Positions 1-10,634 are shown, numbered from the stretch's first letter. The stretch: 10,634 bases of DNA from a bacterium (GCA_040757115.1 JBFLYA010000130.1:1-10634), one strand, 5' to 3'. Notes: generated from the letters alone by a model not told the origin. A program made the numbers and translations.

Positions 1-29
1 CAAGAATAGTCAATGGAGAAATAAATAAT

Positions 30-101
30 CACACAGAGACACAAAGTCACAAAGGAATTGAATAAAACAATAAACCTTTGTGTTCTTTGTGGCTTTGTGT
101 G
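30..101. repeat. Imperfect inverted repeat built of CACAAAG units
   Basis: The left arm (30-55) is made of CACA/ACAAAG units. The right arm (75-101) is its imperfect reverse complement (CCTTTGTG...CTTTGTGTG), around a loop of about 19 bases rich in A and T. It could fold into a long hairpin. The same CTTTGTGTTCTTTGTG wording recurs at about 10313-10330 inside the MITE-like element at the right end, so this may be a dispersed genomic repeat. No coding function is visible in 1-137. Confidence 0.6.
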
Positions 102-112
102 AGAAAATAAAA

Positions 113-136
113 AGGAGATATTTTAGGAGATATTTT
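113..136. repeat. Tandem 12-bp direct repeat (AGGAGATATTTT x2)
   Basis: Two exact head-to-tail copies of AGGAGATATTTT lie immediately before the first attC leader. An AGATATTTTAGGGTCAACC string also introduces the leader of the second site (from about 1060), so the unit probably belongs to the 5' edge of the conserved leader. Confidence 0.6.
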
Positions 137-137
137 A

Positions 138-208
138 GGGTCAACCGTGAATGTGGAATGCACAATAATTCGGTGAGGCAGAGGAAAAGGCAGCGAATTA
201 AAGCTTTT
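138..208 (+). repeat. Conserved pre-attC leader, copy 1
   Basis: First of five near-identical leaders, starting GGGTCAACCG and ending AAAGCTTTT directly against the attC R'' box. This copy lacks 6 bp of the purine-rich GGAAAA tract found in the others. It ends in a half attC (209 to about 276). No open reading frame is shared by the copies. Confidence 0.75.
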
Positions 209-276
209 GTCTAACCCTGCGTTGCAGTTGACGGCGGGGGACTGTGCCGTGGTCAGAGTTTTGTGGTCTCTCAAAG
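209..276 (+). other. Half attC site (left half only)
   Basis: Starts with R'' GTCTAAC (209-215) and continues through the left GC-rich arm and loop exactly like the four standard sites. It stops matching after GGTCTCTCAAAG, and no right arm or R' box follows. About 37 bp of unrelated sequence then leads into a second, complete site at 314. This is probably the scar of a deletion or illegitimate recombination within an older cassette. Confidence 0.7.
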
Positions 277-313
277 AGAAAAATGGGGGACGCACACAAT
301 TATCTAAGAACGA

Positions 314-444
314 TTCTAACAAATCGTTGCAGCGGACGGCGGGAGCTAACTGCTTTTCAAAAGTTTGTAGTTTATCAAAGTTTTGTCTTGCTTATAAAGT
401 TTAGTGGCAATTCTCCCCGCCGCCGCTGAACTCAATCGTTAGGC
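314..444 (+). other. attC recombination site 1 (131 bp)
   Basis: R'' is TTCTAAC (314-320) and R' is GTTAGGC (438-444). The left arm CAGCGG-A-CGGCGGG pairs with CCCGCCG-CCGCTG on the right, leaving one extrahelical A at 336, as in real attC sites. The right half (about 360-444) resembles the divergent site at 2684 more than the standard ones. Recombination would occur at G438/T439, making cassette A start at 439. R'' deviates from RYYYAAC at its first base. Confidence 0.8.
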
Positions 445-568
445 ATCTTGTCAAAGCTGAAGTATACTATGATGGTGGCGACGAGGTTAGCGCATTTTGG
501 ATTTAAACAATTAAGATTTTGAGTCTGTCCAGTATGATTTGTACTGTAGATACGAACGGTGATGAATA

Positions 569-805
569 GTGATAGGATTTGAGATCATTGGTGAAATTAG
601 AAATGTGGAGATAATCGCAACGGGTCAGGGAGTACATATCCGCCGCTATCTGGATCGAACCTATGGCAAGGGACACTGGCGGAAAATGAAAGGTAGAGCA
701 ACTGTGCGATTAATTGATGATACAATCTGTGAAGCCGAGATACACTGGTTTGAAGCACATGGTATAGGTCGTAAGGATTTCAAAGTCAAAAAGGTGATTC
801 GATGA
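569..805 (+). CDS. Conserved hypothetical cassette protein, 78 aa
   Basis: First gene of cassette A. The GTG start at 569 is the first possible in-frame start after an in-frame TGA at 563; a weak GGTGAT lies just upstream. The small basic protein has a core reading YGKGHWRKMKG followed by TVRLIDDTICEAEIHWFEAHGIG. I have the impression of a family of short uncharacterised proteins with a GxWRKxKG...AExHWYEAHGIGRK pattern, but it has no established function that I know of. There is no signal peptide or membrane segment. The stop overlaps the start of the next gene by 4 bp (ATGA), so the two are translationally coupled. A small coupled pair in a cassette fits a toxin-antitoxin or similar two-component unit, but that is inference only. 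Confidence 0.75.
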   Translation: MIGFEIIGEIRNVEIIATGQGVHIRRYLDRTYGKGHWRKMKGRATVRLIDDTICEAEIHWFEAHGIGRKDFKVKKVIR

Positions 806-1050
806 GTACATTTGTAATTTGTATCAACAACGAGAGCAATCCAGCGAGTTTGATTATAGGCAAAGTTTACCAGATTCTGCCAGACGCAGAAGCAAAGGCA
901 CATAACATGTTGCGCATTATTGATGAAGACAAATCCGAGTATGATGGTTATCTTTACCCGGTATCAATGTTCGCACCGATCACTTTGCCAAAGATAGCGG
1001 AGAGGGTATTGATGGCAACAGGTGAGAGAATACCCCTGTTGTCCCACTAA
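802..1050 (+). CDS. Conserved hypothetical cassette protein, 82 aa
   Basis: Second gene of cassette A, coupled to the previous one through an ATGA overlap. It starts MSTFVICINNESNPASL and has the look of a small beta-rich domain: CINN near residues 7-10, GKVYQILPD at 20-28, MLRIIDEDKSEYDGYLYP at about 36-53. I recall similar short proteins of unknown function with the order CINN...Y.VLPD...RIIDE..E.YLYP. There are no catalytic motifs, membrane segments or signal peptide. Its leader and attC follow directly, so cassette A carries just this pair. Function unknown; the coupling suggests it works with the 78-aa product. Confidence 0.78.
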   Translation: MSTFVICINNESNPASLIIGKVYQILPDAEAKAHNMLRIIDEDKSEYDGYLYPVSMFAPITLPKIAERVLMATGERIPLLSH

Positions 1051-1068
1051 GTGCGATAAGATATTTTA

Positions 1069-1145
1069 GGGTCAACCGTCAATGTGAAATGCACAATAAT
1101 TCGGTGAGGCAGAGGAAAAGGAAAAGACAGCGAATCAAAGCTTTT
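1069..1145 (+). repeat. Conserved pre-attC leader, copy 2
   Basis: 77-bp copy with two differences near its 5' end (CGTCAATGTGAAATG instead of CGTGAATGTGGAATG). It begins 18 bp after the stop of the cassette A gene pair and abuts attC 2. Confidence 0.8.
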
Positions 1146-1277
1146 GTCTAACCCTGCGTTGCAGTTGACGGCGGGGGACTGTGCCGTGGTCAGAGTTTTG
1201 TGGTCTCTCAAAGTTTTATCTTGCTATCAAACTTTTGTGGTAATCCTCCCCGCCGCACCTGAACTTTATCGTTAGAC
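1146..1277 (+). other. attC recombination site 2 (132 bp)
   Basis: R'' is GTCTAAC (1146-1152) and R' is GTTAGAC (1271-1277), perfect reverse complements. The arms CAGTTG-A-CGGCGGGG and CCCCGCCG-CACCTG pair around an extra A at 1168. About 80 bp between the arms forms the variable terminal loop, with a secondary CAAAGTTT/AAACTTTTG hairpin. The length is in the range of Vibrio cholerae VCR sites. The crossover point is G1271/T1272. Confidence 0.9.
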
Positions 1278-1296
1278 AGATGAAAAAGAGGTTTAA

Positions 1297-2646
1297 ATGA
1301 AGGCTATATTTAAGATTCTTTTATGGGTGAGTTTCGTCTTACTCATAGGTGGCTGCGCTGGCGGCAGATTACAAATAACAAAAGCCCAAATGCCACTACG
1401 CTCTTTTGAGGATATTCCCCAAAAGGATATTTCAATAGCAAGAGTCAAGCAAGAATTGAGAGAAGGACATTTTGATAGTGTTAAACGAGTGCTGGACGTT
1501 ATCTCAAAAGAAGGATACGAAAATGAGATTGAGATTCATATGTATAGAGGGATATTATATTACTATCAAAACAGGTTACAATCTGCTCTTAATGAATTTG
1601 AAAAGTCCCTAAATCTTCTGGTCCCAACGGTTGAACAAGCTATCCAGAAAGACCTTTATGAAAACGCAGGGTATCTATATTATGACCTCAATGACTATAA
1701 AAAAGCAGCGGTCTATCTTCGCAAATGCAAAGAGTTAGGTGGAGAAGTTGAGGAAGCCGATATTGAATTCTTTGAAAAATTTCAGGGTACTCCTTACCGG
1801 ATTGAGACCCAAGATCAAAGAGCGAACTTAAAGATGGATTACAAAGGAATTCCTATAGTCAAAGGCAGCATTAATGGAAGTAAGGAGCTAAGTTTTATAG
1901 TAGACACAGGAGCGCAGATGACCGTGTTGTCATCAGAGATGGCGAACAAGCTGAAGATAAAACCTCTTGTCTCTGGCAGCAAGGGAGCTGGAGCTGGTGG
2001 CGAATTTTCTGTTGATCTTGGGGTAATCGACTCATTAAGACTTGGTGATGTAATTGTCAGGAATGTCCCTGTTACTATTATTGATTCTAAGGAATTGACA
2101 TTTAAGCTCTTTGGGCTTTTGACAATCTTTAAGATAGATGGGGTAATTGGACTTCCGTTACTAAAACAGTTTGATGTTACCTTTGATTACAAAGGCAAGA
2201 GACTCATCTTAGATATTCCACAGAAGACTGAAGAACCCTCATCCTTTGAAGGCAATTTTTATCTTGTGCGTGATAAGATAATGCTACCCGTAGGCATAAA
2301 TGGCATTGAAGGATTTACATTCATGCTCGATACAGGTGGAGGTGGCGATCATGCTTCTATTACCCCTGAAGGTTTAGAGGAATTAAAGGATCAACAGTTA
2401 AAGATTTCTGAGCAATTAGGTGGAAGTTGGGGTGCTGGCGGTGGAGGAGTAAAGAAGATTAAAGATGTCAAGGATGTCTCCTTGAGAATGTGTGGGTTTG
2501 ATATTCGGAATGTAGATCTGCGTGTAGATAAAGACCCTATAAAAGATAAACTCATCGAGATAGATGGTTTTATTGAGAATATGATATTAGAAAACTTCAA
2601 GGTAAAGATGGATTTTAGAAAGATGCAAATAACATTAGTAGACTAA
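1297..2646 (+). CDS. TPR-like lipoprotein with two retropepsin-like aspartyl protease domains
   Basis: 449-aa single gene of cassette B; AGAGG precedes the ATG by 8 bases. Residues 1-20 are a lipoprotein signal peptide ending in a lipobox (LIGGC, Cys20), so the protein should be anchored in an envelope membrane. Residues 43-150 look like helical TPR-type repeats. From about 178 there is a retropepsin-like (gag-asp/PF13650 type) domain with catalytic FIVDTGA (DTG 203-205) and a later hydrophobic-Gly motif DGVIGLPLL (281-289). A second copy starts near 330 with FMLDTGGGG (DTG 345-347) and ends with DGFIENMIL (423-431), where the usual Gly after the hydrophobic pair is Glu. Each single-domain retropepsin contributes one aspartate, so two tandem domains could form an intramolecular active pair. 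Substrate unknown. It is unusually large for a cassette product. Confidence 0.88.
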   Translation: MKAIFKILLWVSFVLLIGGCAGGRLQITKAQMPLRSFEDIPQKDISIARVKQELREGHFDSVKRVLDVISKEGYENEIEIHMYRGILYYYQNRLQSALNEFEKSLNLLVPTVEQAIQKDLYENAGYLYYDLNDYKKAAVYLRKCKELGGEVEEADIEFFEKFQGTPYRIETQDQRANLKMDYKGIPIVKGSINGSKELSFIVDTGAQMTVLSSEMANKLKIKPLVSGSKGAGAGGEFSVDLGVIDSLRLGDVIVRNVPVTIIDSKELTFKLFGLLTIFKIDGVIGLPLLKQFDVTFDYKGKRLILDIPQKTEEPSSFEGNFYLVRDKIMLPVGINGIEGFTFMLDTGGGGDHASITPEGLEELKDQQLKISEQLGGSWGAGGGGVKKIKDVKDVSLRMCGFDIRNVDLRVDKDPIKDKLIEIDGFIENMILENFKVKMDFRKMQITLVD

Positions 2647-2683
2647 ATTTGAGATGCTAAAGAGAGGTTTAATTTTTTGTTCT

Positions 2684-2815
2684 GTCTAACCCATCGCTGC
2701 ACCTGACTGCGGGGGGCTGTGCCGTAATTAGAGTTTTGTGGTATCCCAAGTTTTTATCTTGTTTACAAAGTTTAGTGGTAATTCTCCTCGCAGCAGGTGA
2801 GCTTTATCGTTAGAT
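2684..2815 (+). other. attC recombination site 3 (132 bp, divergent, no leader)
   Basis: R'' is GTCTAAC (2684-2690) and R' is GTTAGAT (2809-2815). It has the same length and architecture as the standard sites but different arms: CACCTG-A-CTGCGGGG against CCTCGCAG-CAGGTG, with the extra A at 2706. The arm substitutions occur on both sides so that pairing is kept. The conserved leader is absent; only about 37 bp separate the site from the preceding stop codon. Confidence 0.88.
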
Positions 2816-2840
2816 TCAACACTCAGAAAGGAAAGGTATT

Positions 2841-3077
2841 ATGACTGTAACGGTTGAAAAGATTGCAAATGAAGTCAAATTGCTTCAGGAATGGGAGTTG
2901 AACGAGTTTCTGGCCTGGCTTACAGACTACGAGCTTGAACATTTTGACGAATGGGACAAGGAGATTCAACGCGATTCACAGCCGGGTGGACGCTTGCAGG
3001 TCATGCTGGATGGTGTTCGCGATGACATTTCCGCGGGAAGGACTAAACCTCTTGATGAAATCATTAACAACTCCTGA
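2841..3077 (+). CDS. Putative antitoxin of a RelE/ParE-type pair, 78 aa
   Basis: First gene of cassette C; an AAAGGAAAGG stretch precedes the ATG. It is acidic (many E and D), with predicted helices at the N-terminus (residues 1-45) and the hydrophilic C-terminus GRTKPLDEIINNS. It overlaps the downstream toxin gene by 23 bp, which supports coupled translation. I do not recognise a named antitoxin DNA-binding fold (no clear RHH or HTH). The role as antitoxin is inferred from position, size, charge and the partner gene. The C-terminal tail probably wraps and neutralises the toxin, as is common in this class. Confidence 0.75.
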   Translation: MTVTVEKIANEVKLLQEWELNEFLAWLTDYELEHFDEWDKEIQRDSQPGGRLQVMLDGVRDDISAGRTKPLDEIINNS

Positions 3078-3315
3078 TTTCTGGAATTTATACTTTTCTT
3101 TGCCTCCTGAAATCAAATCTCTAGCCAGAAGGATGTATCAATTGTGGAAGAGAAATCCGAGACATCCCTCTCTACACTTTAAGAAAGTTGGTCAGGTATG
3201 GTCTATCAGAGTCGGCGAAGGATTTCGGGCATTGGCCATGAGGGAAAGCGATACTTTCTTCTGGTTCTGGATTGGAAATCATGATGAGTATAAAAGACTT
3301 ATTGGGAAGTTATGA
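3055..3315 (+). CDS. RelE/ParE-superfamily toxin, 86 aa
   Basis: Second gene of cassette C. The frame is open further upstream, but the ATG at 3055 gives the usual toxin N-terminus (MKSLTTPDFWNLYFSLP) and a 23-bp overlap with the antitoxin gene. Features of the RelE/ParE fold: an N-terminal helical pair (about 8-32, PPEIKSLARRMYQLW), then strands in HPSLHFKKVG, VWSIRVGEGFRALAMRE and FFWFWIGNHDEYKRLI. The central Arg residues (R52, R58) and the NHDEYKR end match the pattern of this superfamily. Members either cleave mRNA on the ribosome or poison gyrase; the sequence alone does not decide which. Confidence 0.85.
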   Translation: MKSLTTPDFWNLYFSLPPEIKSLARRMYQLWKRNPRHPSLHFKKVGQVWSIRVGEGFRALAMRESDTFFWFWIGNHDEYKRLIGKL

Positions 3316-3402
3316 TTCGCGGAGGGTTCGCTGATTAAAGGAATGGAGATATCTAAGGAAGTTTTAGAGTCAACGGGAGATATTAGGGGCATGTCATTGA
3401 CA

Positions 3403-3478
3403 GGTCAACCGTGAATGTGGAATGCACAATAATTCGGTGAGGCAGAGGAAAAGGAAAAGACAGCGAATCAAAGCTTTT
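3403..3478 (+). repeat. Conserved pre-attC leader, copy 3
   Basis: 76-bp copy starting GGTCAACCGTG, with the full purine tract. It is preceded by a short stretch (about 3316-3402) that holds broken pieces of the same motif (GGAGATATTAGGGG) and no gene. Confidence 0.8.
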
Positions 3479-3610
3479 GTCTAACCCTGCGTTGCAGTTG
3501 ACGGCGGGGGACTGTGCCGTGGTCAGAGTTTTGTGGTCTCTCAAAGTTTTATCTTGCTATCAAACTTTTGTGGTAATTCTCCCCGCCGCACCTGAACTTT
3601 ATCGTTAGAC
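3479..3610 (+). other. attC recombination site 4 (132 bp)
   Basis: Standard site: R'' GTCTAAC (3479-3485), R' GTTAGAC (3604-3610). Its arms and terminal loop are the same as site 2 apart from a TTCTCC/TCCTCC difference in the loop. It separates the RelE-type pair from the VapBC pair. Confidence 0.9.
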
Positions 3611-3653
3611 AGTGTGATACAATTGTGTCTCAGATTTGCGATTGTAGAAAATT

Positions 3654-3659
3654 AGGAGG
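3654..3659 (+). promoter_or_regulatory. Shine-Dalgarno site deciding the vapB start
   Basis: A consensus AGGAGG sits 7 bases before the ATG at 3667. The frame is open from 3625, but only this start has a ribosome binding site and gives a normal-length antitoxin. Confidence 0.85.
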
Positions 3660-3666
3660 ATGGACT

Positions 3667-3891
3667 ATGTTGACAAAAATGATTGATGTGCATGAAGTTC
3701 AATCTCATTTGCAAGGGTTGTTATCCCAAGTACTGACAGGTATGGAACTTATCTTTACGGACGGAGATAAACCAGTTGCTCGTCTTGTACCAGTTGCTGC
3801 ACGAGTGGCAGGATTACACGCAGGAGCAATTTGGACAAGCATGGATTTTGATGAGCCTTTACCTGAAGAATTTTGGATGGGAAATATATGA
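3667..3891 (+). CDS. vapB: VapB antitoxin, Phd/YefM type (74 aa)
   Basis: Antitoxin of cassette D. The N-terminal half (MLTKMIDVHEVQSHLQGLL, then GDKPVARLVPV at about 48-58) has the Phd/YefM layout: a DNA-binding dimerisation domain that represses its own operon. The C-terminal tail GAIWTSMDFDEPLPEEF (about 54-71) is the toxin-binding segment commonly seen in antitoxins paired with this VapC subgroup. The stop overlaps the toxin start in ATGA, so the pair is translationally coupled. Autoregulation by the VapBC complex is expected from the family. The operator would have to lie in the roughly 56 bp between attC 4 and the start, but I see no clear palindrome there. Confidence 0.9.
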   Translation: MLTKMIDVHEVQSHLQGLLSQVLTGMELIFTDGDKPVARLVPVAARVAGLHAGAIWTSMDFDEPLPEEFWMGNI

Positions 3892-4274
3892 AATTGCTCT
3901 TAGATACACACACTTTCATCTGGTGGGATAGTGAGCCAACAAAACTTTCGGTACAAGTTCTTGCATTATGCCAGAACCGAGAAAATATGTTGCTGTTAAG
4001 CGTCGCCAGCATCTGGGAAATGCAAATCAAACTTCAATTAGGGAAATTGAAGTTTTCAGTGCCTTTAAAAGAAATCATCGAGACTCAGCAACAGACAAAC
4101 AATGTTAAAGTGTTACCTGTTACCTTGCCACATGTGTTGGCAGTGGAGAAATTGCCTGTCTATCATAAAGACCCATTTGATCGTCTCCTGATTGCTCAAG
4201 CTACGGTTGAAGAAGCAGTGCTCGTTACAGGGGACCCGATACTTACCAATTATCCAGTGAAAGTGGTGTGGTAA
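3888..4274 (+). CDS. vapC: VapC toxin, PIN-domain ribonuclease (128 aa)
   Basis: The start at ATG 3888 overlaps the vapB stop by 4 bp. An in-frame TTG further upstream would lie inside vapB and is less likely. The acidic PIN-domain residues are all present: Asp6 in LLLDTHTFIWW, Glu44 in SIWEMQIK, Asp95/Asp98 in HKDPFDRLLIAQA, and Asp116 in VTGDP. Together they bind the divalent metal for endoribonuclease action. VapC toxins typically cut tRNA or rRNA and stop translation; the exact target cannot be read from sequence. Length is normal for the family. The intact active site suggests a working toxin, so losing this cassette could kill the cell or stop growth. Confidence 0.93.
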   Translation: MKLLLDTHTFIWWDSEPTKLSVQVLALCQNRENMLLLSVASIWEMQIKLQLGKLKFSVPLKEIIETQQQTNNVKVLPVTLPHVLAVEKLPVYHKDPFDRLLIAQATVEEAVLVTGDPILTNYPVKVVW

Positions 4275-4311
4275 TTGTGTAAAAACTAAATAGAGAATTG
4301 AAGTATTAGGA

Positions 4312-4389
4312 GGGTCAAACCGTGAATGTGGAATGCACAATAATTTGGTGAGGCAGAGGAAAAGGAAAAGACAGCGAATCAGAGCTTTT
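4312..4389 (+). repeat. Conserved pre-attC leader, copy 4
   Basis: 78-bp copy starting GGGTCAAACCG, with AATTTGG in place of AATTCGG and AGAGC in place of AAAGC near its end. It begins about 37 bp after the vapC stop. Confidence 0.8.
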
Positions 4390-4521
4390 GTCTAACCCTG
4401 CGTTGCAGTTGACGGCGGGGGACTGTGCCGTGGTCAGAGTTTTGTGGTCTCTCAAAGTTTTATCTTGCTATCAAACTTTTGTGGTAATTCTCCCCACCGC
4501 ACCTGAACTTTATCGTTAGCC
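4390..4521 (+). other. attC recombination site 5 (132 bp)
   Basis: R'' is GTCTAAC (4390-4396) and R' is GTTAGCC (4515-4521). Identical in layout to the standard site except for a G-to-A change at 4496 (CCCCACCG) that breaks one arm pair. R' carries GCC rather than GAC, so this junction has a non-matching R''/R' pair, as expected when a cassette of different origin was inserted downstream. Confidence 0.88.
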
Positions 4522-4551
4522 ACAAACTGCAATTAGAAAGAGAGGTTAAAT

Positions 4552-4812
4552 ATGCCAGAGATTAGTCGATTTTATGGTATAATCATTGGGATGTTTTATG
4601 ATGATCATAATCCTCCTCATTTCCATGCTCGGTACGGAAAAGATAAGGCAGCTGTGGAAATCACTACTTTGCGGGTGTTGGAAGGGAAAATTCCTCCCCG
4701 ATCATTAGGATTAGTGGTCGAATGGGCATCACAACACCAAGAAGAACTGTTACAGGATTGGGAGTTGGCCAAAAACAATCAGCCCCCCAAAAAGATTATC
4801 CCTTTAGATTAA
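4552..4812 (+). CDS. DUF4160 family protein, 86 aa
   Basis: First gene of cassette E, with AGAGG before the ATG. It has the hallmarks of DUF4160: MPEISRFYGIIIGMFYDDHNPPHFHARYG at the N-terminus, including the conserved DHNPPHFHARYG motif at about 18-29, then a helix ending in WELAKNNQPPKKI (about 70-82). The conserved His/Asp cluster suggests metal binding or catalysis, but no activity is established. DUF4160 genes are very often found next to DUF2442 genes, as here with a 13-bp gap, and the pair has been proposed to act as a toxin-antitoxin-like module. That proposed role is inference. Confidence 0.88.
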   Translation: MPEISRFYGIIIGMFYDDHNPPHFHARYGKDKAAVEITTLRVLEGKIPPRSLGLVVEWASQHQEELLQDWELAKNNQPPKKIIPLD

Positions 4813-4825
4813 GTGGAGGTTTTCA

Positions 4826-5092
4826 ATGATTCATGATGTTGTTTCAGCGGTTTATAAAGGCGGGTACAAGATAAAGTTAACTTTTGATGATGGGAAAAAT
4901 GGAGTTGTTGATTTTGCAAAATACTTGACGGCAGGTGGAGTCTTCACGAAATTCAAGGATGTTGAATTCTTCAAGAACTTCACAGTGAATGAAGAGTTGG
5001 GTGTCATCACCTGGAATAATGAGGTAGATGTTGCACCGGAAACACTTTATTCTGAAGCTACAGGGTCTTCTTTGCCAAGATGGATGCAATAA
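4826..5092 (+). CDS. DUF2442 family protein, 88 aa
   Basis: Second gene of cassette E, with TGGAGG 8 bases before the ATG. It has the DUF2442 pattern: MIHDVVSAVYKGGYKIKLTFDDG (strand-rich N-terminus), VDFAKYLTAGGVFTKFKD, FFKNFTVNEELGVITWNNEVDVAPETLY (central, with the conserved GVITWNNEVDVAPETLY segment at about 60-76). No membrane segment. It is probably co-transcribed with the DUF4160 gene and may be its partner or antidote. The stop lies about 18 bp before the next leader. Confidence 0.88.
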   Translation: MIHDVVSAVYKGGYKIKLTFDDGKNGVVDFAKYLTAGGVFTKFKDVEFFKNFTVNEELGVITWNNEVDVAPETLYSEATGSSLPRWMQ

Positions 5093-5110
5093 CTATAATA
5101 GGGAGTATTA

Positions 5111-5188
5111 GGGTCAAACCGTGAATGTGGAATGCACAATAATTCGGTGAGGCAGAGGAAAAGGAAAAGACAGCGAATCAGAGCTTTT
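5111..5188 (+). repeat. Conserved pre-attC leader, copy 5
   Basis: 78-bp copy starting GGGTCAAACCG. It shares the extra A and the late AGAGC variant with copy 4, which suggests these two neighbours arose from each other or were homogenised. Confidence 0.8.
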
Positions 5189-5320
5189 GTCTAACCCTGC
5201 GTTGCAGTTGACGGCGGGGGACTGTGCCGTGGTCAGAGTTTTGTGGTCTCTCAAAGTTTTATCTTGCTATCAAACTTTTGTGGTAATTCTCCCCGCCGCA
5301 CCTGAACTTTATCGTTAGAC
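5189..5320 (+). other. attC recombination site 6 (132 bp)
   Basis: R'' is GTCTAAC (5189-5195) and R' is GTTAGAC (5314-5320). The arms and loop are the standard type and match site 4 throughout. It marks the start of the fused F+G cassette. Confidence 0.9.
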
Positions 5321-5349
5321 TAACCACAAAAAAGGTAGAATTACACAAA

Positions 5350-5835
5350 ATGAAAAGATACATTTTTATTGCCTTAATATTAATATTTATTTTATGGGCG
5401 ATAGGTGGATTAGCTGTATGGTTATTTTTACCAAATTGGTCCATTCGTGGTACCTTCGGTGATATGTTTGGAGCTATCAATTCTCTTTTTTCTGGATTAG
5501 CGTTAGCTGGAGTGATTATTGCAATACTTCTCCAGAAAACTGAACTTGAACTGCAAAGACACGAATTAGAAATGACCAGAGAAGAACTTCACCGTGCCGC
5601 TGAGGCTCAGGAAAAATCGCAACAAGCACTTAAGCAACAGGTAGAGAATCAAAAACTTTTGGCTCAACTTGAATCCATTAATGCACTGCTTGCTTCTTAT
5701 GGTGATCAAATTGAGGGAATGAAGGGAAATAGTACAGTCGTAATGACACTAAAAGAACAGTGTGAAAAGAAGATAAATAAGTTGCGTGAATCTTTGGAAA
5801 AAGTACTTTCTGACGCAGGGCTAAATTTAGAATAG
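5350..5835 (+). CDS. Membrane-anchored coiled-coil protein, 161 aa
   Basis: Gene of cassette F, with AAAGGT before the ATG. There are two membrane segments: about residues 4-30 and about 44-62, the latter following GTFGDMFGAINSLFSGLA. Then comes a long charged helix (about 63-155) rich in E, Q, K and L with heptad spacing, likely a coiled coil facing the cytoplasm. The FGDMFGAxNxLFSGLAxAGxxxAxxLQxxELELQRxEL wording recurs in uncharacterised proteins and in the N-terminal anchor of putative abortive-infection proteins (putAbiC-type). That makes an anti-phage membrane function conceivable, but no effector domain is present here and this is only a hypothesis. The attC after this gene is decayed. 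Confidence 0.8.
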   Translation: MKRYIFIALILIFILWAIGGLAVWLFLPNWSIRGTFGDMFGAINSLFSGLALAGVIIAILLQKTELELQRHELEMTREELHRAAEAQEKSQQALKQQVENQKLLAQLESINALLASYGDQIEGMKGNSTVVMTLKEQCEKKINKLRESLEKVLSDAGLNLE

Positions 5836-5911
5836 AAACTTAGAGAAGAATTGGAGTCATCTCCCGAATTGAGAATTAACGCAAGCAGGAAGAAAAGAGA
5901 ATTGCAAAACA

Positions 5912-6000
5912 AAGTTTTTGTCTAATCCAGCGATGTTCCCTGATTTTTATGAGAGGAGGCTCTGACTTGCTTCGCGTGCCCGTGAGTTTTGTCATTATGA
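5912..6000 (+). other. Decayed attC site
   Basis: GTTTTTGTCTAATCCAGCGATG (from 5913) is a mutated copy of the start of the standard site, with R'' GTCTAAT instead of GTCTAAC. A later CGTGAGTTTTGT resembles its loop. Neither a GC-rich right arm nor a GTTRRRY box follows before hicA, so it should not recombine. The flanking genes therefore probably move as one cassette. Confidence 0.55.
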
Positions 6001-6023
6001 CCAAATGATGTATAGGAGACTAA

Positions 6024-6209
6024 ATGAAATTCAGTGAACTGGTTAGATTATTAGAAGAAAATGGATTTAGAATTGTGAAAGAAAAAGGCTCAATAAGATA
6101 CTATGGAAAGACTGGGTGGAATAAAATGGTTCGACTTGATTACCACGGATCAAAGGAAGTTCCTACAGGCACTTGCAATAGTATCCTAAAGGCTGCAGGA
6201 ATTAAATGA
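6024..6209 (+). CDS. hicA: HicA-family toxin, 61 aa
   Basis: GGAG precedes the ATG. It has the double-stranded-RNA-binding-like HicA fold: MKFSELVRLLEENGFRIVKEKGS (helix and strand), VRLDYHGSKEVPTGTCNSILKAAGIK (strand then C-terminal helix). HicA toxins cleave mRNA and are neutralised by HicB. The catalytic His usually found as GSHH or GSHR is Ile here (KGSIRYYGK, about residues 21-29), while a His remains in DYHGSKEVPTG. This may be a subfamily with another active-site layout or a weakened toxin. It is followed after 16 bp by hicB, toxin first, as is normal for hicAB. Confidence 0.87.
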   Translation: MKFSELVRLLEENGFRIVKEKGSIRYYGKTGWNKMVRLDYHGSKEVPTGTCNSILKAAGIK

Positions 6210-6225
6210 CCATAAGGAGGATAAG

Positions 6226-6477
6226 ATGATTGAATTACCATATTCATTAGTAATTGAAGCTACGGAAGAACCAGACTATTTTGGTTTCTATTCCCTGGAT
6301 TTGGAAGGCTTTTCAGGCATAGGACATTCTGTAGAAGATTGTTTGTACCAGGCTAAGTGGGGAATGAAAGAACATGTTGCTTTACTAAGGGAACAAAGGA
6401 TTCCAGTCCCTCCTGAGAACCCAAAAGCTAAGATTATTATTCAGAATGAAAGAAAATTAGATGTGGCAATGGTCTAA
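6226..6477 (+). CDS. hicB: HicB-family antitoxin, 83 aa
   Basis: AAGGAGG precedes the ATG. The N-terminal domain is the partial RNase H-like HicB fold (YSLVIEATEEPDYFGFYSLDLEGFSGIGHSVEDCLYQAKWGMKEHVALLREQ), with the typical YSLDLEGFSGxGxSVEDC run. The short tail IPVPPENPKAKIII follows, and no separate C-terminal HTH or ribbon-helix-helix domain is present, as in short HicB proteins. It should bind and block HicA. Its stop codon TAA (6475-6477) lies inside the R'' box GTCTAAC of the next attC, so the coding end and the recombination site are merged. Confidence 0.88.
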   Translation: MIELPYSLVIEATEEPDYFGFYSLDLEGFSGIGHSVEDCLYQAKWGMKEHVALLREQRIPVPPENPKAKIIIQNERKLDVAMV

Positions 6478-6531
6478 CAAATCGCTGAAGCTGACGGTGC
6501 TTCGCACCGCAGCTTAGCTTTATCGTTAGAC
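6472..6531 (+). other. attC recombination site 8 (60 bp, short type)
   Basis: R'' is GTCTAAC (6472-6478) and R' is GTTAGAC (6525-6531). The arms form an almost perfect hairpin: AAGCTG-A-CGGTGC, loop TTC, GCACCG-CAGCTT, with a single extrahelical A at 6494. This is the compact layout typical of mobile integron cassettes and differs strongly from the 132-bp type next door. It is the last recognisable attC in the window. Confidence 0.93.
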
Positions 6532-6551
6532 CCTGAGAGGAACAAGAGCAT

Positions 6552-6674
6552 ATGTCAAACTTTGAGCACATATTCGAGACCTATAGGAAAGCCGAAGTCA
6601 AGAAGTTCACAGAAATAGCGGACAATATTCGCTCTCTCGATGATCTTTCCTCTCTGCTCTTATGTCTCCTTTAA
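6552..6674 (+). pseudogene. Start of a cassette gene, broken after 40 codons
   Basis: It begins with an ATG 20 bp after attC 8, at the position expected for the gene of a new cassette (H), with GAGAGG upstream at 6534-6539. It reads MSNFEHIFETYRKAEVKKF, continues through DNIRSLDDLSSLL and stops at TAA 6672. The first 36 or so residues look like a real amphipathic helical start, but the end is abrupt, no attC follows, and base usage changes after about 6660. I infer that the cassette was cut here by a deletion or insertion. The product is not recognised. Confidence 0.5.
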
Positions 6675-7103
6675 TTATGCTTACTGAAAGAATAAGCGAT
6701 ATACATTTTATCCAGTATAATCGTCAACGCATCCTTTCTCTATTAACCTGCCTTTTTCTCGTCTGGCTTATGGTCAGGAGCTTTAAAGAGATGCAAACCA
6801 TTGGTCAGATTTGTCCAGCAACCAGCTTGATTACATTCAGTAATCTCCTGATGAAGGACTACCTCTTTCCCCATTTGAGCTTACTTCAATTTTTCTCTCC
6901 TTTTATTTTTATATTAATTTTAACTTTGGCCAGTCCTTCAGGAAGAACCGTATCTTCACGGTATACTATTCTACAATTTTTTTGAATAACTAAAAGATTT
7001 TTTTAAGTTTTAATCTAAAAAATGGACTATCTTAACCCTAAATTTTAAATGAAGTTAAGGCAATATTAAAAATAAATTGCTATCTTATGCGGTTTTTTAT
7101 TAC
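6675..7103. other. Gene-poor stretch after the array; degenerate sequence
   Basis: No convincing gene. A plus-strand open frame from 6662 to 6985 has composition typical of the reverse side of coding DNA (very rich in L, F, S, I). On the minus strand there is a 43-codon frame (6743-6874, starting MGKEVVLHQEITECNQAGCW) with no clear relatives. Before it is a piece ending YREDTVLPEGLAKVKINIKIK (stop at 6886), which reads like the C-terminus of a real protein. These may be remains of minus-strand genes. From 6985 to 7090 the sequence is extremely AT-rich. No strong terminator hairpin was found below the membrane protein gene. Confidence 0.5.
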
Positions 7104-7520
7104 TTATTCCGCCTCAACGGGTGACCTTTTCCTGAACTTAAGCTTGATAAGAAATGTTGAAATCTTACAGGAGCAAATCGTTCTTAATTTGGAAATAATA
7201 TCCATTATCTGCATGCCTAATATAATTATTCCCAAGATTGCAAGGGAGATGAAAACAGTTCCAAATTTAATCGCAGAAGGTGAGTTGCCATAATAATTAG
7301 GCAGTGCCTTTGCAGAGAGCATAATGGCAAATGCCTGCAATGTAATCCATATCCCGCCTATAACCAATAAGGCGATAATTGTCTGTCTTAATACAAAATG
7401 CCACCTGTTACGATTGCTCCGCCGACGCAACAACAATAATAACTCGTGAACCGGCATCAGTAAAGCCGACAAAAGATAAAATAATCCGCTTATTCCGCTC
7501 CCAGGTAGACCCACTGCCAT
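7104..7520 (-). CDS. Small three-helix membrane protein, 138 aa
   Basis: The start is placed at the ATG at 7520, 1 base after the stop of the glycosyltransferase gene. GAAAGGA lies 8 bases before it, inside the end of that gene. The frame is open further up but would overlap without a ribosome site. Membrane segments lie at about 9-31, 46-70 and 86-108, separated by a basic loop LRRRSNRNRW and followed by a basic cytoplasmic tail (KLKFRKR). The tight coupling suggests an accessory subunit of the neighbouring polysaccharide synthase. No known family is recognised; a PgaD-like role is conceivable by position only. Confidence 0.75.
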   Translation of the reverse strand: MAVGLPGSGISGLFYLLSALLMPVHELLLLLRRRSNRNRWHFVLRQTIIALLVIGGIWITLQAFAIMLSAKALPNYYGNSPSAIKFGTVFISLAILGIIILGMQIMDIISKLRTICSCKISTFLIKLKFRKRSPVEAE

Positions 7521-7521
7521 T

Positions 7522-8607
7522 TTAGTGTCCTTTCTCATACATGGCAAAACGCCGCCTCAATATTAATTCACTCCACATTGCCTCTAACATAAAAATACTG
7601 TTAATAGTGCGCAGGACGAAAAATGAGGAAATGCTTGTTAAAATCAACCCCCCTTCTTTCTTACTGCGCATGTGTAAAAGTGCCGGTATCAAGACTGCCG
7701 GTGCATCAATTACATACCCAAAAAGAAAAAGAGGGTTTGCAAATAAAATAGCCAATAAAGGCAAAAGCAGAAGATAGGCCACCGATGCAAAAATTCCATC
7801 CCACATAGCTATGGCAATAAGTAGACGCAGGTAGCGAATCCTTGCTATTTTGCTCCAATGCACGCACACATTTTGTATAAAACCGTGTGACCAGCGTTTT
7901 AGTTGTTTTTTCATAAGTGAAAAATTATGGGGTTCAATAGGATAGGCAAACGCCTCAGGAACAAATACTACTTTGCGGCCTAATTCGTAAAAACTCCATG
8001 TCAAATCCACATCTTCTGCCAGAGTCCTATTAGACCAGCCTCCGTTTTGCTTTAAAATATCTGTTCTGTAGGCAGAAAAACAACCGGAGGAAATGAGGGG
8101 TTTTTCATAATAATCCTGTATCTGCTTATAAAAGGAAAAAGCAAAGAGATATTCAATATAACGGCCGCGTTCCCAGACCGTCTTTACATAACGAGGGAGC
8201 ACAAAACCGCAGACTGCCGCAGCATTACTTGCCTTAAGGGCATTCAGCATTTTCTCCACTGCATCAGACTCCAAAATAGTATCAGCGTCAATGGCCATAG
8301 TGAATTGGGTAGTTACATCCTTTAAAGCGTAGTTCTGGGCACCTGCCTTTGAGCCAGTGTTATATGGCGGCCTGATAACTGTAACTCCAAGTTCAAGTGC
8401 TACTTCAAAAGTATTATCAGTAGAACAGTCATCCACCACTATAATTTCATCAGGGGGAACTGTTTGATTCTTTAAACTCATTATTGTATCGGCTATGCTC
8501 TTTTCTTCATTGTATGCCGGGATTATGACAGTCAAGTTACTCAATTTTTTTACTGATAGGAAATTGCTTTTTTGAGTGTTTTGGGTATTATATCCATTTG
8601 TGCCCAT
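7522..8607 (-). CDS. Processive family 2 glycosyltransferase, membrane-bound (361 aa)
   Basis: Inverting GT2 enzyme of the cellulose/chitin/poly-GlcNAc synthase type, which adds sugars from UDP-donors to a growing glycan at the inner membrane. The GT-A domain starts at VIIPAYNEE (28-35), followed by VVDD (57-60), DAD (107-109, metal and nucleotide sugar), SSGCFSAYR (173-181), TLAEDVD (195-201, catalytic base) and QLKRW (235-239, the QxxRW motif of processive enzymes). Membrane helices follow at about 261-293, 297-312 and 322-345. Unlike PgaC or IcaA, there are no membrane helices before the GT domain, so it is shorter. Product unknown: poly-GlcNAc-like exopolysaccharide is a guess. The start at 8607 lies only 9 bases beyond a -10 box, so the mRNA may be leaderless. 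The next in-frame ATG is within the GT domain. Confidence 0.9.
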   Translation of the reverse strand: MGTNGYNTQNTQKSNFLSVKKLSNLTVIIPAYNEEKSIADTIMSLKNQTVPPDEIIVVDDCSTDNTFEVALELGVTVIRPPYNTGSKAGAQNYALKDVTTQFTMAIDADTILESDAVEKMLNALKASNAAAVCGFVLPRYVKTVWERGRYIEYLFAFSFYKQIQDYYEKPLISSGCFSAYRTDILKQNGGWSNRTLAEDVDLTWSFYELGRKVVFVPEAFAYPIEPHNFSLMKKQLKRWSHGFIQNVCVHWSKIARIRYLRLLIAIAMWDGIFASVAYLLLLPLLAILFANPLFLFGYVIDAPAVLIPALLHMRSKKEGGLILTSISSFFVLRTINSIFMLEAMWSELILRRRFAMYEKGH

Positions 8608-8616
8608 TGTGAGGAT

Positions 8617-8645
8617 ATTTTACCACAAATTTTATCCTTTGTCAA
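8617..8645 (-). promoter_or_regulatory. Strong sigma-70-type promoter of the glycosyltransferase operon
   Basis: On the minus strand: -35 TTGACA (8645-8640), 17-bp spacer, -10 TAAAAT (8622-8617). Transcription should start at about 8610, only a few bases before the ATG at 8607, and no Shine-Dalgarno sequence fits between them. Confidence 0.75.
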
Positions 8646-8834
8646 CAAAAAATTCAAAAAAATTCGACTCTTTTAAAAAAAATCCAAAAATTAGTATCGA
8701 AAATCTGCTCGATTAGGACAAAATCATAAAAATGGACATTGCCAATAGTGATTTTGGACACACTTATCCTCCGGAAGGTCCTTGGAAGGTCATAAAAGAA
8801 AGGACTAAAAAGTAGGTGAGAATTATGAAGGGTA
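8646..8834. other. AT-rich intergenic stretch without a gene
   Basis: Poly-A/T runs at 8645-8695, then a plus-strand 27-codon frame (ATG at about 8732, MDIANSDFGHTYPPEGPWKV) with no ribosome site or relatives. It lies downstream of the transposase remnant and probably includes decayed insertion sequence DNA. No recognisable regulatory site apart from the promoter at its left edge. Confidence 0.45.
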
Positions 8835-8987
8835 TCATCTTCCCTGCCAGAAACCATTATAAAACCATCTCTTCGTCCCTGGCATATTCTTCAGGATTTC
8901 CTCAATATCTTCTTTTTTGCAGATAATCTCTAACATCCGCATATTACCACCACATTCCGGACACTTCAATGGGTCGATACAAAAATA
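8835..8987 (-). pseudogene. C-terminal remnant of an IS91-like transposase
   Basis: About 50 codons, no start. The reading is YFCIDPLKCPECGGNMRM, then an IEEILKNM helix, then a stop at 8835. The DPLxCPxCGGxMR zinc-ribbon pair and the following I.....D.E.I..IL segment are typical of the extreme C-terminus of IS91/Y2-type transposases. It begins only 2 bases after the lexA stop codon. All of the catalytic part is missing. Either lexA sits on the inner edge of a deleted element or the deletion joined them. Confidence 0.72.
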
Positions 8988-8989
8988 TC

Positions 8990-9618
8990 CTAAAATCTTC
9001 TATACAAACCAATGACTTTCCCCGCAATCTTTATATCCTCTGCAGATACCAGTATTGGTTCCATCTTAGAATTCGCTGGCTCTAATCTCACCAATGATGT
9101 GCTTTCACGATAATAATATTTCACTGTAGCATCTCCTCCCACAAGTGCTACAACTATATCCCCATTATCGGCTATTTTTTGCCTTCTAACAATCACATAA
9201 TCCCCTGACAAAATCCCTGCTTCAATCATACTATTCCCTTCTACCTTAAGTGCAAAACACTTAGTATTGCTGACTAAATCTTTACCTAAGATAATCTCAC
9301 CCTCAATATTCTCCAAAGCCAGTAATGGTAGCCCTGTCTGAATCCTTCCTACTTTTGGAACCTTCACATACTCATCTTCTAATCTCTGTCTTTTATGCTC
9401 AACCAACAATTCTATAGCCCTGGGTTTGGTTGGGACCTTCCTCAGATAGCTTTTCTCTTGTAACGACTTGAGATGGGCAAAAGGTGCACAAGGAGATTTT
9501 AGTCCCAAATGACTCTGTATCTCCCTTACCGTAGGTGGGTAACCACATCTCTGGATATTCTCCAGACAAAAGTCTAATACCTGTTGTTGTTTTTCGGTTA
9601 ATTTAATTCCTTTGGCAT
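8990..9618 (-). CDS. lexA: LexA repressor, reading frame broken near the start
   Basis: SOS repressor and autoprotease. Restored, it would be about 209 aa: helix-turn-helix at 7-70 (LTEKQQQVLDFC..., YPPTVREIQSHLGLKSP), linker, and S24 peptidase domain with Ser130 (EGNSMIEAG) and Lys167 (DATVKYYY). The natural start is the ATG at 9618, with GGAGG 8 bases upstream, but that frame stops after 8 codons. The LexA frame lacks any ATG, GTG or TTG until codon 38 (TTG 9508), which would lack most of the HTH. One extra A in the run CCAAAGG at about 9610-9615 would join the two exactly (MPKGIKLTEK). So this is a recent frameshift, a sequencing error or slippage. The cleavage site, normally Ala-Gly, is Thr95-Gly96 (GRIQTGLPLLALE). 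Transcription is probably autoregulated through the SOS box upstream. Confidence 0.9.
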
Positions 9619-9626
9619 GCTCATCA

Positions 9627-9631
9627 CCTCC
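9627..9631 (-). promoter_or_regulatory. Shine-Dalgarno site of lexA
   Basis: GGAGG on the minus strand, 8 bases before the ATG at 9618. Its quality shows that this ATG is the intended start, even though the frame following it closes at once. Confidence 0.8.
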
Positions 9632-9641
9632 AATTATTATA

Positions 9642-9653
9642 ATACATATGTTC
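9642..9653 (-). promoter_or_regulatory. SOS box (LexA operator) in front of lexA
   Basis: Reads GAACATATGTAT on the minus strand, a near match to the Gram-positive type SOS box GAAC-N4-GTTC with one half-site imperfect. It lies just downstream of the -10 box, around the likely transcription start, where bound LexA would block transcription. A perfect 12-bp palindrome, TTCTAATTAGAA (9651-9662), overlaps its edge. Confidence 0.7.
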
Positions 9654-9660
9654 TAATTAG

Positions 9661-9689
9661 AATATACCATATAATCTTCAGAATGTCAA
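9661..9689 (-). promoter_or_regulatory. lexA promoter
   Basis: On the minus strand: -35 TTGACA (9689-9684), 17-bp spacer, -10 TATATT (9666-9661). Both boxes are near consensus. Transcription would begin at about 9654-9655, placing the SOS box at +1 to +13 or so. Confidence 0.8.
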
Positions 9690-9987
9690 GTAATTTTTTG
9701 GAGGGTGTTGAAAAAGTCGTTTTTTAGGAAAGGGTAGTTTTTGGAGGGGTGAATTTTCTAAAAACTGCAAAACTGCCTCCCTCTTTGAATTTAAACCTCT
9801 CCTTTTTAACCTTTCTTTTTATTTTTCTTAATCTTTCGTAACTATTCAGCACAATTATTCGATCTGTGCGGTTAGAAGAGAAACTTCCCCGCATTAAGGT
9901 TAAAGACGTACTCTCCCTTCTCCGCCGCTGGCGGGGGGATTAAGGATGTGAAAATCTTCTCAACTACCATTTCAATACAGGTCGCAA
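9690..9987. other. Non-coding 3' end of the IS66-like element
   Basis: No gene. It lies between the transposase stop (9988) and the lexA promoter. It holds an inverted repeat AGTTTTT/AAAAACT (9736-9766), a string GGGTGTTGAAAAAGTCG (9703-9719) of the sort often seen at insertion sequence ends, and a CCGCC-GCT-GGCGG hairpin (about 9923-9936). The outer end of the IS66-like element is probably inside this stretch, but I cannot place its terminal repeat. Confidence 0.45.
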
Positions 9988-10159
9988 CTATTGCATAAAC
10001 TCTGGCAATTGACCTTCGAACAAGAGATTCAGACCCTGAATTGAACCAATTCCATTCTTCTTGCATGTCGAAATATAGCTCCGAATCCGGCAGAATATTT
10101 TAGCCCCTTCCAGCGACCTGAAACAACCAGAAATCTTTTGCTGAACTTTAGTCATACGA

Positions 10160-10168
10160 ATATCATTT
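10160..10168. repeat. 9-bp target site duplication, left copy
   Basis: ATATCATTT directly flanks the left end of the inserted element. The identical string is at 10508-10516 on the other side. Confidence 0.88.
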
Positions 10169-10507
10169 GGGTGTGGCTATTCTTAAACGACAGGAGATTT
10201 ATTGTATCTCCTATGGTTATGTAAAAAAGAGTTAATAAAAAAGTTCCCTCCGGGTATAGATATAAAGTAGCCATCTTAATATCTCTATCAGAGATAGTCT
10301 ATTTTCAGTTATCTTTGTGTTCTTTGTGTCTCCTTTGAGAACTTTGTGTTTAATAATGTAGGTATCCTTAATTTAACCACAAACTTTACGAAGTTTTTCA
10401 CAACGCTCACAGAGATATAGACTTATAATGTAATGTTCTTTATAAACAGATTCCTTAAAAAGGAACAGGAAGGCTGTTTTAACCGTCGTCCAAAAGTAGC
10501 CACACCC
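10169..10507. mobile_element. MITE-like element (339 bp) inserted in the IS66 transposase gene
   Basis: Both ends read GGGTGTGGCTA inward. The imperfect inverted repeat extends to 23 bp (19 matches: left 10169-10191, right 10485-10507), ending ACGAC on each side. The element is flanked by an exact 9-bp duplication. The inside has no transposase gene, only small hairpins: AGGAGAT-N7-ATCTCCT at about 10192-10212, and ATCTCT-ATC-AGAGAT in the stretch 10281-10297. It also carries a CTTTGTGTTCTTTGTG tract like the repeat at the left end of the window. It would have to be mobilised in trans by a full-length element with the same ends. A 9-bp duplication occurs in several families (for example IS1, IS4/IS10), so the parent is not assigned. 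Confidence 0.88.
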
Positions 10508-10516
10508 ATATCATTT
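10508..10516. repeat. 9-bp target site duplication, right copy
   Basis: ATATCATTT, identical to 10160-10168, directly after the right inverted repeat. Transposase coding sequence resumes here. Confidence 0.88.
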
Positions 10517-10634
10517 TCACTCTGGTTGTTAGTAAAAGGAACATCTTTGTCTCCCATAAACCTTAATGTCTCATTCTCATAGTCCCTTAGCCGTTCCAGA
10601 AGATTATGTGCCTTTGTCTTCTTTGGTCTGCCCC

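Follow-up and report, generated by a model that had tools for sequence, protein, structure and literature searches.

The window, i.e. the whole stretch of DNA that we analysed, is the entire 10,634-bp contig C130 of a fragmented, MAG-like bacterial genome assembly (4.32 Mb in 462 contigs, 99.9% complete and 1.4% contaminated). Its left part consists of tandem, co-oriented attC sites with short ORFs on the same strand between them (Table 1). The stretch from 6532 to 10634 lies outside the array and carries genes on the minus strand, namely a glycosyltransferase gene (7522-8607), lexA (8990-9604) and, at the contig end, a fragment encoding the C terminus of an IS66 transposase (10423-10632). Elsewhere in the genome there are copies of the first 20-40 codons of the glycosyltransferase gene, 60-90% identical and lacking the remainder of the gene; a close ortholog, sought for an empty-site comparison, was found in neither the congener nor the family. 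LexA matched TIGR00498 over the full frame (210 bits). The frame is open to its N terminus, but the ATG behind the ribosome-binding site GGAGGTGATG is offset from it by one base, so a frameshift or a misassembly may affect this gene. Contig C202 carries a second lexA. Just upstream of the lexA in the window (9639-9665) a palindrome, TTCTAATTAGAA, overlaps GAACATATGTAT and is possibly an SOS box. A link between such a box and the integrases was considered and rejected, as the lexA palindrome was not found near the intI genes.

Table 1. Features of the cassette array in the window (R1, covariance model described in the text).
Feature	Position	Strand	Evidence
3' part of recurring ORF-less cassette, cut by contig end; includes main-attC 5' flank	1-208	+	Complete copies elsewhere
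Truncated main-type attC, left half normal, right half absent	209-310	+	R1 29.7 bits, E 8e-6; direct repeat
attC, 131 bp	314-444	+	R1 139.1 bits; bottom-strand fold z -4.1
Cassette 1: ORFs 569-805 (78 aa) and 802-1050 (82 aa), no known family	439-1271	+	
Conserved 5' flank of main-type attC	1067-1145; copies 138-208, 3402-3478, 4312-4389, 5111-5188	+	
attC main type, 132 bp	1146-1277	+	R1 139.0 bits; fold z -3.9
Cassette 2: lipoprotein-like, TPR repeats and aspartyl-protease domain, ORF 1297-2646	1272-2809	+	PF13650 E 1e-21
attC, 132 bp, CACCTG/CAGGTG arm type	2684-2815	+	R1 153.6 bits
Cassette 3: ORF 2841-3077 (78 aa, putative antitoxin by position) and ParE-like toxin in ORF 2935-3315	2810-3604	+	
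attC main type, 132 bp	3479-3610	+	R1 140.1 bits
Cassette 4: Phd/VapB-like antitoxin 3670-3891 and PIN toxin ORF 3873-4274	3605-4515	+	
attC main type, 132 bp	4390-4521	+	R1 135.5 bits
Cassette 5: DUF4160/DhiT-like 4552-4812 and DUF2442/DhiA-like 4826-5092	4516-5314	+	
attC main type, 132 bp	5189-5320	+	R1 140.1 bits
Cassette 6, two fused: membrane/coiled-coil ORF 5350-5835; HicA 6024-6209; HicB-position ORF 6226-6477	5315-6525	+	
Decayed attC left half GTCTAATCCAGCGATG, R' absent, between two fused cassettes	5920-5943	+	Repeat match 71%, sequence reading
attC short type, 60 bp, final site of array	6472-6531	+	R1 62.2 bits; fold z -5.7

Both strands of the window were scanned for sites that combine R'' and R' boxes with paired arms and a bulged base. 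Seven complete sites were found between 314 and 6531, all on the plus strand (six of 131-132 bp and one of 60 bp), and none on the minus strand; a preliminary description made from the sequence alone had counted six, together with the half-site and the decayed site, both of which we also found. In shuffled sequence, sites reaching the lowest of the observed scores arose at a rate of 0.02 per window, and sites scoring 14 or more did not occur. The box motifs RYYYAAC (R'') and GTTRRRY (R') are present, with one box mismatch in each of two sites. Since an Rfam search of the window was uninformative, returning only chance miRNA matches, we built a genome-specific covariance model, R1, from 30 attC sites of the host genome. 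As the preliminary description had anticipated, the model recovered the sites with high scores: the seven complete sites had E-values of 1e-15 to 2e-43, which are partly circular because four of the window's sites were in the training set, and the half-site was detected as well. Covariation counts and matches in other phyla are less exposed to this circularity.

In the alignment of the 30 sites, with the R''/R' and L''/L' pairs named by hand, 92% of the pairs were standard, and sliding the partner by 1-3 columns reduced pairing to 26-49% of cells. The covariation score was 0.301 as against 0.120 in shuffles, none of 500 of which reached it, and folding of the bottom strand gave bulged hairpins for the window sites (z -2.5 to -5.7). 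Two bases of the left arm are unpaired, a G (column 16) and an A (column 23) six apart, which on the bottom strand are C and T. The attC sites of the window thus belong to the T-N6-C class, i.e. those with two extrahelical bases six nucleotides apart; the single extra A noted initially is real, but the second extra base, the G, had been overlooked. Excision by IntI1, IntI2*179E, IntI3 and SonIntIA has been measured on T-N6-C sites with the same extrahelical T and C at the same spacing (PMC3053210). In most known attC sites the second extrahelical base is G (PMC3053210), whereas in this genome it is C in nearly all of the sites found. As an independent check, R1 was run on 31 loci that surround IntI genes outside this genome (Scalindua, Brocadia, Deltaproteobacteria, Nitrospirae and others). 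It found 11 attC-like sites in these other phyla, every one of them on the strand opposite intI, as the layout of an integron predicts.

The toxins encoded in the cassettes all scored above their Pfam cut-offs: the ParE-like protein (PF24732, E 5e-6), PIN (PF01850, E 7e-11), HicA (PF07927, E 3e-13) and DUF4160, which lies with DUF2442 in cassette 5 (PF13711 1e-23, PF10387 3e-16). Among the antitoxins, DUF2442 was above its cut-off and the Phd/VapB-like protein below (PF02604 E 0.006, VapB 2e-4); the matches of cassette 5 to DhiT (7e-25) and DhiA (4e-7) both fell under the curated cut-offs. Four toxin-antitoxin (TA) or TA-like pairs had been proposed for the array. Support for them varies: PIN has a candidate Phd/VapB-like partner and cassette 5 a DhiT/DhiA-like pair, but the ORFs partnering HicA and the ParE-like toxin matched no family in profile searches. 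Integrons often carry TA systems (PMC7370490; PMC11023631). The ORF-less cassette that opens the window is about 318 bp when complete, as on contigs C39, C118, C93, C282 and C298. An 18-bp inverted repeat, CACAAAG...CTTTGTG (29-46/85-102), looks like a dispersed palindromic element, and similar sequence occurs at about 10305-10420 and in many ORF-less cassettes. The 60-bp site had been taken as a sign that a foreign cassette had been captured. This origin is unsupported, as at least 15 short sites (57-72 bp) are spread across the genome's arrays, where they form a regular minority type.

Genome-wide, R1 detected at least 134 attC sites, distributed over about 38 contigs; this total is a lower bound because 150 of 1994 candidates were scored. 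The sites are clustered and share a single orientation on 21 of the 22 contigs with two or more of them, and do not lie between non-cassette genes on both strands, as might have been found had the repeats been unrelated to cassettes. On the exceptional contig, C93, arrays at 199-9456 (plus strand) and 11336-14276 (minus strand) face each other, possibly through inversion or misassembly. The integrase profile TIGR02249 scored above its cut-off on C39 and C30, and pieces of intI were found on C63, C118, C114, C324 and C116. The copy on C39 (13613-14995, minus strand) is intact and encodes 460 aa (369 bits against a cut-off of 265). Its best PDB match is the Vibrio cholerae IntI 2A3V (E 2e-70), and the alignment of the two extends across the IntI-specific stretch as well as the catalytic motifs. 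Pfam reports PF13495 (SAM-like core-binding domain) in two stretches of the protein, and the N terminus has about 135 extra residues in common with IntI of Brocadiaceae, Desulfobacterota and Nitrospirota MAGs, many of which align with residues 1-452 at about 48-71% identity. The host's broken intI genes, judged as such from frame breaks, stops and partial matches in unrepaired sequence, form a separate second lineage with 38-56% protein identity to the C39 IntI and are far closer to each other.

DNA upstream of the broken intI genes on C30, C116 and C118 is nearly identical and then diverges exactly at CTAA(G/T)|GTTA. In sequence terms this would be the trace expected if different first cassettes had been inserted at G^TTRRRY. 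These attI regions contain a promoter-like pair, TTGACA-N17-TACTCT, and an imperfect duplication. Contig C130 contains neither intI nor attI, and the platform of its own array is unseen. The apparent lack of an integrase in the preliminary description was thus an effect of the end of C130, since an intact intI gene and several broken ones lie on other contigs of the genome. By itself, with seven attC sites, a largest gap of 1.4 kb and no intI, C130 fits the survey definition of a CALIN, i.e. at least two attC sites separated by less than 4 kb, with intI absent (PMC9668308). Unlike an isolated CALIN, however, it shares its genome with intI, so it is a fragment of a larger system. Positions 209-6531 are almost certainly the distal end of an integron cassette array, probably a chromosomal one. 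An intact IntI is carried by another contig of the genome, and the array on C130 is one piece of a very large, partly broken integron system.

A chromosomal location is probable rather than proven for C130: the system is large, its attC sites are highly similar and such sites are found throughout the phylum, and lexA and glycosyltransferase genes follow the array on C130. The original view of a true integron cassette array, borne out by boxes, paired arms, covariation and folds, was right, and it was probably right as well in regarding the array, rich in TA-like cassettes, as a resident one of chromosomal type. The sedentary chromosomal integrons of the Vibrio cholerae superintegron type likewise have large arrays with homogeneous long attC sites (132 bp here), ORF-less and TA cassettes, intI opposite to the array and a promoter-like pair inside attI. 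Here, in contrast to that type, the system is divided among about 38 contigs, it has several intI loci of which most are broken, and the host belongs to a small phylum. RpoB of the host has 70-71% identity to two MAGs and 62% to DeMMO4_10. Among 19 genomes of the phylum that we examined, 17 contained attC matches (16 of them two or more sites) and six contained IntI above the cut-off. That integrons occur widely but patchily among bacterial phyla, as well as in archaea, is already known (PMC9668308). The integron itself is a known kind of element, here in a little-studied candidate phylum.

In this array each cassette is a plus-strand gene or gene pair ending in attC. The bottom strand of attC folds into a hairpin with the extrahelical T and C, which IntI would recognise and cut at G^TTRRRY in R', and cassettes cut in this way could be excised and re-inserted at attI or at another attC. 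The C39 IntI most likely acts in trans on all of the arrays, including those with a broken intI. A cassette at a distance from attI is probably not expressed unless it has a promoter of its own, as TA pairs do; these pairs would also help to prevent loss of the array.

With several intI genes broken, integron activity may be low or lost. Taken to its conclusion, this would make the array a relic, in which the lineage's integron activity has ended and the sites are decaying fossils retained by the TA pairs. Frame breaks and partial matches in every intI but one fit this explanation, as do the truncated attC at 209-310, the decayed attC at 5920 and five main-type modules that are preceded by the remains of a different attC. 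We nevertheless consider it improbable, because the frame of the C39 intI is intact over 460 aa, the copies of the main attC are 95-100% identical to each other, the arms covary rather than drift, and the contigs differ in the order and content of their cassettes. That the integron contigs are bin contamination from another organism is very unlikely: the assembly is fragmented and its contigs are broken at repeats, but its estimated contamination is low, an independent congener genome has the same attC type, the flank described below and many sites, attC is found across the phylum, and contig C30, 26 kb long, carries its array together with a 1536-aa metabolic gene that adjoins intI. Finally, a non-integron dispersed palindromic element (MITE or REP-like) between genes, for which the near identity of the 132-bp repeats and their common 75-90-bp flank outside attC might argue, has a negligible probability and was rejected, given the R'/R'' and L'/L'' architecture with T-N6-C bulges, the co-orientation, the attI junctions at G^TTRRRY, the association with intI in this and other genomes, and the many sequence-different sites that have only the attC structure in common.

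Within this integron system the module of flank plus attC is the one element that is potentially new. The main attC type, which has the left arm GTTGCAGTTGAC and one mismatch in the L arm, is preceded by the same upstream sequence in 39 aligned copies, joined to unrelated ORFs. Across these copies the flank is about 97% conserved to about -72 from R'' and fades by -90. Its core occurs 51 times in the genome as against none for the reversed pattern. Nearly all flank copies that could be matched precede an attC; two reach a contig end and one precedes a truncated attC. Most other attC types are without the flank, a few having an apparent diverged version, and in the second species of the genus it is found on the same attC type, there too next to unrelated genes, with a few copies shortened at about -19, -45 and -62. 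We found no signal that the flank folds as a structure (z -1.1 and -0.2), and no main attC on viral contigs by exact pattern. This conserved flank outside the dominant attC may set the host's system apart from the Vibrio type.

The 318-bp ORF-less cassette ends at its 3' side in the same flank and attC, and five of 40 main-type modules directly follow the remains of a different attC. We read the latter as cassette fusion, i.e. the replacement of a damaged attC by the working site of the module downstream. We tentatively suggest, while regarding it as doubtful, that the dominant attC, together with its flank of about 75-90 bp, acts as a prefabricated 3' end for cassettes, about 205-220 bp long. 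Unrelated genes that become joined to it would gain a working attC, in some cases with an earlier, broken one lying upstream. Simple duplication of the 3' end of one cassette, spread by recombination, would also fit, as would an unrecognised function of the flank.

These results add a small candidate phylum whose members appear to carry integrons generally, and provide an example of a genome whose many attC sites are probably served by one intact integrase. The creation of cassettes is an open question of integron biology, and how genes acquire attC sites is treated in general terms in the literature consulted here (PMC8352920). The flank-plus-attC modules that follow older attC remains offer testable material on this question, and if the module is indeed a prefabricated 3' end, a step of cassette creation would be visible in the sequence of this genus.
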